In this document: positions 13,015-15,315 of the stretch, one piece after another | How the letters are laid out: each line of letters begins with the position of its first letter | How positions within the stretch are numbered: position 1 is the stretch's first letter | From: a virus | Reading direction: 5' to 3' (one strand) | Length of the DNA stretch: 33,741 bases | Virus record (IMG/VR): IMGVR_UViG_3300042523_000080 | Span: 1 to 33,741 of that record | Notes under the pieces: generated by a model | The model's input: only the letters and a program-made list of their open reading frames with translations | Databases searched by the model: none | Told to the model about the DNA's origin: nothing | Made by a program: the position numbers and the translations under genes

Positions 13015-13701
13015 ATTGACCCAATCAGTATCTGTCTTCTTGCGGCTGGTCTTGTCAAGAACATCCAAGCTGGCTGTGATCTTTACAAGCAAGCTAAAGA
13101 GTCTTTTGTCGAGATTAAAGCCAGTGCAGATGAAGTTATCGCTATTGGTAGAGAGGTTCAAGGTTTCTGGTCGAAACTTAGCAGTTTCTTTGGCGCTAGT
13201 CCCAAGCCTAAAGCTGTTCAGCCTGTTTCAAAAGCTAAAAAGTCTGACTATGTTGCTGTTAACGAAACTCAAGTTAAAGTTGACATCGTTAAAAATCTCA
13301 CTGAGTTCTTCAAACTTCAAGAACAGTTGGAAGCACATATTAGAGAAGAAGAAGAAAAGTCAAGAACAGTTTACGACCCAGATCAAAACCACATGGAGGC
13401 GGCACTCAAACGAGTGATGGCTCAACAGGAGATGGACAGGTTGATTGTCCAAATCAGGGAGACTATGGTTTACCACAGCCCTCCTGAGATGGGCGCTTTG
13501 TACAGTTCAGTCTTTGAGATGCGTGACATCATCAAAAAGGAGCAAGAAGAAGCCAGGCTGATTGAGGAGTCCAAAGAGAGGTACAAGCAATGGCGGCGGC
13601 GGGAAGCAAAACGAAACCTAATGCTAAAAGAAGCGTACCTAGCGGGAACGGTAATCCTCCTCCTTTACATATGGATGTGGTTTCTGTTCGTCAGGAGATA
13701 G
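13015..13701 (+). CDS. Helical protein with C-terminal membrane anchor, apparent AUU start
   Basis: The frame is open from 13006 to the TAG at 13699-13701. It encodes 228 residues if translation begins at ATT 13015: (M)IDPISICLLAAGLVKNIQA then CDLYKQAKESFVEIKASADE. No ATG or GTG is available before the middle of the gene, and the first TTG is codon 105. AGGAG at 13004-13008 is ideally placed 6 bases before the ATT. The protein has an N-terminal amphipathic region, a lysine/proline linker (about residues 63-77), long charged helices (about 95-200) and a C-terminal anchor (AYLAGTVILLLYIWMWFLFV). Function unknown; position between ejection and lysis genes suggests entry or lysis. A one-base error changing ATG to ATT is the alternative. 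Confidence 0.65.
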   Translation: MDPISICLLAAGLVKNIQAGCDLYKQAKESFVEIKASADEVIAIGREVQGFWSKLSSFFGASPKPKAVQPVSKAKKSDYVAVNETQVKVDIVKNLTEFFKLQEQLEAHIREEEEKSRTVYDPDQNHMEAALKRVMAQQEMDRLIVQIRETMVYHSPPEMGALYSSVFEMRDIIKKEQEEARLIEESKERYKQWRRREAKRNLMLKEAYLAGTVILLLYIWMWFLFVRR

Positions 13702-13712
13702 GAGAGGAAATC

Positions 13713-13973
13713 ATGGGGTGGGTTGCTTGTTGCGTACTGATCGCTCTATTGCTTCCTATGGCTGGAATGCTGTACTTGGACATCTTGGAAGCAAAGAATG
13801 AGACAAAGCGTGTTTTGCAGAAGTTAGAGAAGATTGAACAACGCATTGAAAGGAAACAGCGTGACAAAGACCGTAAAGAGCCTGATTCTTTTGCTGACAA
13901 TCCTGTTTTTGACAGGGTGCGAAGACCGTTTTCGTTATCCTTGCCAAGACCCACTGAATTGGGCAAAAGATGA
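13713..13973 (+). CDS. Inner-membrane, coiled-coil protein; i-spanin-like
   Basis: An 86-residue protein with one N-terminal membrane segment (GWVACCVLIALLLPMAGMLY, residues about 2-22) and then a charged coiled coil (EAKNETKRVLQKLEKIEQRI) facing the periplasm. This is the topology of a short i-spanin. The start at 13713 has AGGAGAGGAAATC upstream; an in-frame ATG at 13590 with its own GAGAGG would add 41 residues but overlap the previous gene by 112 bases. A lipoprotein gene begins inside it in another reading frame, the architecture of nested Rz/Rz1 pairs. Function is inferred from topology and context. Confidence 0.6.
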   Translation: MGWVACCVLIALLLPMAGMLYLDILEAKNETKRVLQKLEKIEQRIERKQRDKDRKEPDSFADNPVFDRVRRPFSLSLPRPTELGKR

Positions 13974-14046
13974 ATGTAAGCCACCGATTTGTACCGCTAC
14001 AGGTACTTGTCCTGAAATGTTAGTCAAACCAGAGGAGAAAAAGTAA
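13861..14046 (+). CDS. Small outer-membrane lipoprotein, o-spanin-like, overlapping the previous gene
   Basis: A GTG start at 13861 (AAGGA 7 bases upstream) gives 61 residues: MTKTVKSLILLLTILFLTGC, a basic n-region, hydrophobic core and LTGC lipobox, so the mature protein would start at C20. The rest is short and cysteine/proline-rich (YPCQDPLNWAKDECKPPICT). The first 113 bases lie within the 13713-13973 gene in a different frame. An in-frame TTG at 13834 is a possible alternative start. The FRYPCQDP-NW-K-ECKPP-C pattern recurs in phage lipoproteins. A spanin partner role is inference. Confidence 0.65.
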   Translation: MTKTVKSLILLLTILFLTGCEDRFRYPCQDPLNWAKDECKPPICTATGTCPEMLVKPEEKK

Positions 14047-14369
14047 TGGCAACCATTGGATACAAGCAAAACAACCGTTTGACCGCAGACGAGATTGAAG
14101 TCAGGGTATGGGCATTCGTTATCGTAGTCTTGGTGACAATTCTGTTGGCTTCTATGGGTATGTTCCTGTACTCAGTCTCCTTTGTCACTCAGCCTATGAA
14201 TGGTGCTATGGCGGCAATTGACAAGGTTTACACGCAACAGATCAGCACCATCATGGTATTTATCACTGGTGTCTTGGGTGGTGTAGCTGGTCGTTCTGGT
14301 GTAAAGGCTATTGCCAATGCCAGTGCTAAGGCTGAAGCCACTGACAACGATGAGCCACCTACGCCATGA
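14046..14369 (+). CDS. Holin candidate, two membrane segments
   Basis: A 107-residue protein with a charged N-terminus and two hydrophobic segments, about 21-45 (VWAFVIVVLVTILLASMGMF) and 65-82 (ISTIMVFITGVLGGVAG). The C-terminus is hydrophilic with an acidic end (EATDNDEPPTP). Size, topology and location between spanin-like genes and an endolysin gene fit a class II-type holin that would permeabilise the inner membrane. The start shares one base with the preceding stop; the gene end overlaps the Rz-like start by 4 bases. No family-specific motif was recognised. Confidence 0.6.
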   Translation: MATIGYKQNNRLTADEIEVRVWAFVIVVLVTILLASMGMFLYSVSFVTQPMNGAMAAIDKVYTQQISTIMVFITGVLGGVAGRSGVKAIANASAKAEATDNDEPPTP

Positions 14370-14854
14370 GTATCTTTAACCCTTGGGTAATCTTGGGGTT
14401 TGTCTTGTCTGTAACCATTTCTTTTGGGAGTGGTTACTTCAAGGGCAAGCATGATGAGAATGTCTCTCAACAACTAGAGATTGCTCGTTTAAATGCGGTT
14501 GCAAGGACAAAAGAGGCTGCTTTGGCAACAGCAGTGACATCAACAGCTACGGCACTAAGGACATCAAATGAGAAAGCAAGACAGATTTCAAAAGAGCGTG
14601 ATTTGGCTATTGCCTCTGGCGCTCTCAAGTTGCGGCTTCCTGTCAAAGCCCCCAACTGCACCGTATCAACCCCCGACAATCCCACCGCTACCAGCGGAGA
14701 TAGCGTTCAAGCAACAGCCGAACTTGACAGAGAGGTTGCTAAATCTCTTGTCGCCATCACAGACCAAGGAGATGCCAACACCAGACAACTCAACGCCTGT
14801 ATTGATGCCTACAACGCCGCCTATCAAACCATAACCAAAGGAGTCCCACAATGA
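14366..14854 (+). CDS. Rz: Rz-like inner-membrane spanin (i-spanin)
   Basis: A 162-residue protein with one N-terminal membrane anchor (about residues 7-24, WVILGFVLSVTISFGSGYFK) and a periplasmic helical region (LEIARLNAVARTKEAALATA). The C-terminal part has VKAPNCTVSTPDNP and finally NACIDAYNAAYQ, typical of Rz/LysB-type proteins. A full lipoprotein gene is nested inside it in the +1 frame at 14568-14834, as in the lambda Rz/Rz1 pair. The endolysin gene follows with an ATGA overlap. It would span the periplasm with the nested lipoprotein and disrupt the outer membrane late in lysis. Confidence 0.85.
   Translation: MSIFNPWVILGFVLSVTISFGSGYFKGKHDENVSQQLEIARLNAVARTKEAALATAVTSTATALRTSNEKARQISKERDLAIASGALKLRLPVKAPNCTVSTPDNPTATSGDSVQATAELDREVAKSLVAITDQGDANTRQLNACIDAYNAAYQTITKGVPQ
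14568..14834 (+). CDS. Rz1: Rz1-like outer-membrane lipoprotein (o-spanin), nested inside the Rz-like gene
   Basis: An 88-residue frame wholly inside 14366-14854, one frame over. It starts MRKQDRFQKSVIWLLPLALS with a basic n-region, short hydrophobic core and lipobox LSSC, so C22 would be lipidated. The mature part is strongly proline-rich (PPTAPYQPPTIPPLPAEI), the hallmark of Rz1. A nested, proline-rich lipoprotein within an Rz gene in the +1 frame is the textbook embedded spanin arrangement. Length is slightly more than lambda Rz1 (60 residues). No independent strong ribosome-binding site is visible. Confidence 0.8.
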   Translation: MRKQDRFQKSVIWLLPLALSSCGFLSKPPTAPYQPPTIPPLPAEIAFKQQPNLTERLLNLLSPSQTKEMPTPDNSTPVLMPTTPPIKP

Positions 14855-15315
14855 ACCTGTCAGCAAACTTCAAACTCTCAGAGCTAATTAAGTCAGAGAC
14901 TGCAACACGCCTAGACATTGACAACACGCCAAACGAAGAACAGATCGAATCATTGCGTTTGCTTTGCGAAAACATCCTACAGCCAGTGCGTGACCACTTT
15001 GGCAAGCCTGTCAAGATCACATCTGGGTTTAGGTGTCCAGCCGTTAACCAAGCCACTGGAGGCTCGGCAACCTCAGACCATTGCAAAGGCCAAGCTGTTG
15101 ATTTTGAAATTGATGGTCTTCCAAACCCTGATGTGGCTCAGTGGATTATGGATAACCTTGACTACACCCAACTTATCCTAGAGTTCTACACACAAGGACA
15201 ACCCAATTCGGGCTGGATTCACTGTAGCTTTGACCCATCTAATCTTAAAAATCAAGAACTCACAGCCGTTAAGGTGGCGGGAAAGACTCAGTACTTGCAA
15301 GGACTACAGGCATAA
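14851..15315 (+). CDS. Endolysin, peptidase M15 family (peptidoglycan L,D/D-Ala peptidase)
   Basis: A 154-residue zinc peptidase of the M15A-like kind. Visible zinc ligands are H77 and D84 in SGFRCPAVNQATGGSATSDH then CKGQAVDF, and H124 in GWIHCSF. E111 (ILEFY) is the likely catalytic base. The family cleaves peptide cross-links of peptidoglycan, and many phage endolysins of this size consist only of this domain. There is no signal peptide, so release would depend on the holin. It is ATGA-coupled to the Rz-like gene. The last 47 bases overlap the convergent - strand gene. Confidence 0.9.
   Translation: MNLSANFKLSELIKSETATRLDIDNTPNEEQIESLRLLCENILQPVRDHFGKPVKITSGFRCPAVNQATGGSATSDHCKGQAVDFEIDGLPNPDVAQWIMDNLDYTQLILEFYTQGQPNSGWIHCSFDPSNLKNQELTAVKVAGKTQYLQGLQA

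Follow-up and report, generated by a model that had tools for sequence, protein, structure and literature searches.

Positions 13713 to 15315 of a freshwater phage genome probably form one lysis cassette whose only spanin pair is Rz/Rz1. Two further genes in it, o1 and hol, appear from their sequences to make up a two-gene holin-type lysis module with o1 as the extracytoplasmic four-cysteine partner of hol. The overlapping genes i1 and o1, described in the first-pass annotation as a second spanin-like pair, are very probably not a spanin pair but two unrelated neighbours. The DNA analysed (the window) is a self-standing virus record of 33,741 bases with head, portal, terminase, tail-fibre and replication genes, in which no tRNA genes were found. 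A single scan of a genome collection returned four metagenome-assembled contigs only, so the host assignment is not firm, and a BLAST comparison of the block with isolate phages gave only short endolysin matches.

All genes of the block lie on the plus strand, and the four frames on which the earlier claims were built (i1, o1, Rz and Rz1) were confirmed in position. The gene i1 (13713 to 13973, ATG start) encodes 86 aa with a single hydrophobic segment near the N-terminus (residues 4-22), predicted to span the membrane, and then a charged coiled-coil-like stretch; the charges flanking the segment are ambiguous as to its orientation. It is overlapped by o1 (13861 to 14046, GTG start), which encodes a 61-aa lipoprotein with the lipobox LTGC (Cys codon at 13918) and is followed by hol (14046 to 14369), a candidate holin gene for a protein of 107 aa with two helices predicted as a hairpin. 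Upstream of i1 stands pre (13015 to 13701), whose 228-aa product has one C-terminal transmembrane (TM) segment (residues 208-226). At the other end, an M15 peptidase endolysin (14851 to 15315; PF08291, E 7e-20; phrog_894 endolysin, E 1.6e-43) has neither a predicted signal peptide nor a predicted TM segment. The order pre-i1-o1-hol-Rz/Rz1 is kept in 80 close IMG/VR loci, with few exceptions at contig ends, and in most of these the M15 gene then follows.

The Rz/Rz1-type pair named in the first-pass annotation is genuine and is an ordinary embedded spanin. The i-spanin Rz (14366 to 14854) has a TM segment and matches phrog_1327 (E 2.2e-13), and the proline-rich o-spanin Rz1 (14568 to 14834), with the lipobox LSSC, matches phrog_3198 (E 3.7e-5) and is wholly embedded in Rz in the +1 frame. 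Both families are Rz-like spanins in PHROGs. When both pairs were searched against spanin families, as had been proposed, only this one was recognised, and i1/o1 gave no convincing match.

The out-of-frame overlap of a membrane protein with a lipoprotein, also claimed for this lysis block, is real, and both frames are under protein-level selection. The two genes share 113 nt (13861 to 13973), where o1 is read in the +1 frame relative to i1. The synonymous-site check suggested earlier was run on o1 codons -11 to -2, counted from the RYxC motif, around the lipobox. Among 61 distinct sequences with the overlap, non-modal synonymous codons made up 16 of 556 inside it and 424 of 1085 downstream, while in 20 relatives in which i1 ends before o1 they made up 79 of 158 in the equivalent codons. 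Fisher's test gave p 4e-44, a value to be read with caution as the sequences are related. Furthermore, o1 codon -8 varies between F, C, Y and S where i1 stays V or I. Selection on both frames, and not on one only, follows from the scarcity of synonymous codons together with this pattern, and on the i1 side it acts through the motif DNPVFDRVRR in the C-terminal tail. The overlap is not universal, since the i1 of some relatives is about 50 aa long and stops at an ATGA junction before o1.

The two overlapping genes nevertheless separate freely in evolution, and it is hol that o1 travels with. The o1 set comprises 324 loci, a number of them drawn more than once from one contig, with 254 distinct o1 windows. 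At 320 of these loci hol directly follows o1, and the remaining four end at a contig edge; an independent search led by hol found o1 adjoining it in all 77 loci with enough upstream sequence. The two genes are mostly -40 to +10 nt apart, a distance compatible with translational coupling. By contrast, i1 is present at only 103 of the 324 loci and pre homologues at 105, so that about two-thirds of o1-hol loci have no i1, although i1 directly precedes o1 wherever they occur together. A search led by i1 returned 80 loci, nearly all with pre upstream. Twenty of these lack both o1 and hol (a twenty-first, L419, was excluded because its contig ends just after the o1 start), and because the two are absent jointly, o1 and hol are gained and lost as a unit that i1 does not track. 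Related phages lacking the o1 frame or its lipobox had been named beforehand as telling against the claimed pair; these 20 are phages of the first sort, and the related o1 genes without a lipobox cysteine, at least 40 in number, represent the second.

In the 20 loci without o1, i1 is always short and lacks the DNPVFDRVRR tail, and other small membrane proteins take up the slot that separates i1 from Rz or the endolysin. Most have an EF-hand-containing TM protein, which is possibly a calcium-binding holin; examples of about 109 aa stand in place of o1-hol at L423:2319-2645, L468:2322-2648 and L485:3001-3339. Homologues of this protein occur in Roseobacter phages and in Limnohabitans phage DC31, where one open frame separates the gene from a downstream L-alanyl-D-glutamate peptidase gene. 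The slot of L427 has a phrog_1544-type protein, and those of L432 and L439 have a phrog_3427 holin (E 3e-14 and 9e-14), which by eye is also the slot protein of L433, L440 and L458. As for i1 itself, no PHROG or NCBIfam match and no Pfam match above the curated cut-off was found, and tblastn in isolate phages gave chance matches only. It would, with pre, be a separate accessory unit of one lineage and not an obligate partner of o1, its 3' end overlapping o1 in most of that lineage as true dual coding.

A side finding concerns the start of pre. In the window its conserved N-terminus has no ATG, GTG, TTG or CTG, and the frame appears to begin at an ATT with AGGAG in front. The first conserved codon is ATT in 64 distinct sequences, GTG in 11, ATC in 2 and CTA in 1, and many homologues are preceded by a Shine-Dalgarno-like AGGAG or GGA, with an in-frame stop no more than 4 codons ahead of the start. 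Given this motif and the nearby stop, a conserved AUU start codon would be the simplest reading. At one locus (L017:3248-4048) a single reading frame joins pre to i1 and lacks the TM segments of both, suggesting that the soluble parts of the two proteins can share a compartment, or else an assembly or deletion artefact.

The protein o1 has a characteristic cysteine pattern and more than one kind of membrane anchor. Its mature part carries the motif RYxCQ-P...C..P.C.....C (R-Y-x-C-Q-x-P ... C-x-x-P-x-C ... C), with exactly four mature cysteines in 82 of 84 aligned members and all four columns invariant; these cysteines may form disulfides. At 40 loci or more the lipobox cysteine is absent and an uncleaved-type TM anchor is present instead, for example MEALVWVTFVAAVGAIFYLSGDGFYRYPCQDP; four further loci with the variant lipoboxes MGC or YGC were not counted among these. 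At L244:3564-3995 and similar loci, a 143-aa protein lies directly upstream of a TM-anchored o1, in the position of i1, with a hydrophobic segment, a long coil-like stretch and no detected similarity to i1. No convincing match to o1 was found in PHROGs, Pfam or NCBIfam; spanin-family similarity was limited to weak matches of 2 of the 84 members to phrog_456 (E 0.006), the o1 profile had no relative below E 0.2 among PDB sequences, and a fold search of viral models returned nothing but unnamed or uncharacterised phage proteins, all of them weak matches. Among 50,697 phage records, o1 and hol occur in only four, all of environmental or uncultured-type phages.

The distribution of o1 extends to phages of a different envelope type. 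The actinobacterial regulator WhiB was found in 15 of the 25 records tested from the group with a lipoprotein o1 and no Rz, and in 0 of 25 of the other groups; in the control set the WhiB search matched Corynebacterium glutamicum only. These Rz-less, WhiB-bearing phages very probably infect Actinomycetota, which have no classical outer membrane. The endolysins beside o1-hol are of several unrelated kinds, namely M15 in the lineage of the window, CHAP, VanY-type and GH19-type proteins, of which the CHAP and VanY types adjoin o1-hol in the WhiB-type phages.

The evidence on hol is consistent with a holin. It is a small TM protein encoded beside Rz and endolysin genes, and the only two-TM protein of the block. 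Since the M15 endolysin has no export signal a holin is needed, and hol would be the likely one to release it. The AlphaFold model is a hairpin of two helices (mean pLDDT 74), and the charges favour a predicted N-in/C-in topology, which would place the inter-helix loop outside the cell membrane. Six of eight (nearly) invariant residues other than the start Met lie in this loop (Y42, V47, T48, Q49, P50 and D59, the FVTQP...D motif), as expected for an external docking site. Searches for relatives led to phrog_25359, labelled unknown function, and to no holin family in PHROGs, Pfam or NCBIfam; a PDB sequence search with the hol profile gave nothing useful, and in the fold search the hairpin matched uncharacterised phage proteins. 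Three small TM proteins (L225:4429-4908, L433:1514-1741 and L483:2978-3217) resemble hol by eye in the TM2 region, share the stretch ..NxxIFxxIxPAFxTxVGxFxGLLxG.. and may be distant relatives. Against hol as the holin, cassettes of the actinobacterial type have a further small TM protein beside hol, and at L003 a separate protein matches a phrog_443 holin (E 1.5e-5), so that in such cassettes hol need not be the main holin.

How the module might work can be proposed from these features. The small extracytoplasmic domain of o1, tethered by lipid in the window and by an uncleaved TM segment in other lineages, would most likely dock on the conserved FVTQP loop of hol and regulate the assembly or the timing of hol, as an antiholin (for example T4 RI) or a co-holin would, with the two genes moving and being replaced as one unit. 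It is tentatively suggested, at a little under even chances, that o1-hol is an unnamed two-protein lysis-control system in which the four-cysteine domain gates a two-helix holin through its outer loop. Adjacency of the two genes does not prove that their products interact.

The reading of i1/o1 as a second overlapped two-component spanin, a specialised or spare device for outer-membrane disruption, deserves attention as the layout fits the published criteria for overlapped spanins, an inner-membrane protein with a coil and, overlapping it in the +1 frame, a lipoprotein (Kongari et al., 2018; PMC6139136). In addition, both frames of the overlap are selected, and the combined periplasmic length of roughly 100 residues exceeds the published minimum of 62 (PMC6139136); short length, considered as an argument against a spanin, was given up because spanins down to this minimum are known. 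However, each gene occurs without the other and neither has spanin homology. Spanins are defined by paired subunits, a lipoprotein as the outer-membrane subunit and diderm hosts, but o1 stands mostly without i1, the lipobox of the window is found in only part of its family, and o1 is present in WhiB-bearing phages. Because of the lipobox-less loci and the phages of monoderm hosts, o1 is not an outer-membrane spanin subunit across its family. Where enough sequence follows, loci with i1 and o1 also carry Rz, and thus i1/o1 has never been seen to replace it. The residues at +2/+3 after the lipidated cysteine are acidic (ED or DD) in the o1 of nearly all Rz-bearing phages, compared with AS, GF, GS or SF in Rz1 of the same contig set, a difference suggestive of different membrane sorting but no proof of it, as the sorting rule comes from Asp at +2 in E. 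coli. Taken together, a second spanin is very unlikely. An origin by duplication of Rz/Rz1, raised in the first-pass annotation, was rejected, as the two pairs show no sequence similarity.

Small phage lipoproteins can be exclusion proteins, and the same annotation had mentioned an exclusion function, for which nothing was found in support among i1 and o1 as a pair. In a related form, o1 with hol could be a late module for superinfection exclusion or envelope remodelling and not a lysis effector, and in PHROGs one of the 84 o1 members weakly matches Cor (E 0.007). This is distinctly improbable, given that o1-hol stands beside endolysin genes of several unrelated kinds and gives way as a pair to other membrane proteins, a holin family among them. 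It has also to be considered that i1, o1 and hol form one membrane complex in the lineage of the window, i1 having been recruited with its DNPVFDRVRR tail contacting o1 or hol. The strong selection on the tail where it is present, and the position of co-occurring i1 always immediately upstream of o1, would agree with such a complex, but about 20 distinct o1-hol sequences have a short, tail-less i1, as have all 20 loci without o1. With short i1 found both with and without o1-hol, the tail tracks the overlap itself, and a three-protein complex is unlikely.

The proposed holin-type module o1-hol, by comparison, holds together in hundreds of contigs, beside endolysins of several unrelated kinds and in phages of both envelope types. 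Such linkage marks a core lysis function, for which neither PHROGs, Pfam nor NCBIfam has a name. In uncultured freshwater phages most lysis genes lack annotation, and if the proposal is correct, lysis control by o1-hol would be widespread among uncultured aquatic phages, both in actinobacterial (monoderm) lineages and in those that bear Rz/Rz1 (diderm hosts). The overlap also carries a caution for annotation: it is real and selected, yet its partners separate freely in evolution, so a membrane protein overlapping a lipoprotein gene is by itself insufficient to call a spanin.

Compared with known systems, Rz/Rz1 of the window resembles the lambda-type embedded two-component spanins in its +1 frame, TM-anchored i-spanin and proline-rich lipoprotein, and as an ordinary member shows no notable difference from them. 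The i1/o1 layout is like that of the T5 and Jersey types of overlapped spanins, in which the 3' end of the TM protein gene overlaps the lipoprotein gene, and some of these families vary between overlapped and separated genes (PMC6139136). Unlike them, i1 and o1 are found apart, o1 is tied to hol, and o1 is TM-anchored in some lineages and present in phages of monoderm hosts. Lysis modules are known as a kind, but no description of the o1-hol module with its cysteine partner was found in the literature searched, relative to which it is new. A conceptual analogy may be drawn with T4 T/RI, where a small extracytoplasmic cysteine protein is thought to act on the holin (PMC11413866). Neither sequence nor fold similarity between o1 and RI was found in the PDB sequence search and the fold search of viral models, RI is not a lipoprotein as o1 is in the window, and hol differs from T in that it has two TM helices but lacks a large periplasmic domain. 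Similarly, LysF1a/LysF1b of the F1 cluster of mycobacteriophages are a two-TM N-in/C-in protein of 88 aa and a single-TM partner in one lysis cassette (PMC13056207), which resembles the arrangement proposed for hol and o1, except that LysF1b is N-out/C-in. Both systems could be regarded as precedents for the idea of a small partner acting beside a holin, and not as homologues of o1-hol.
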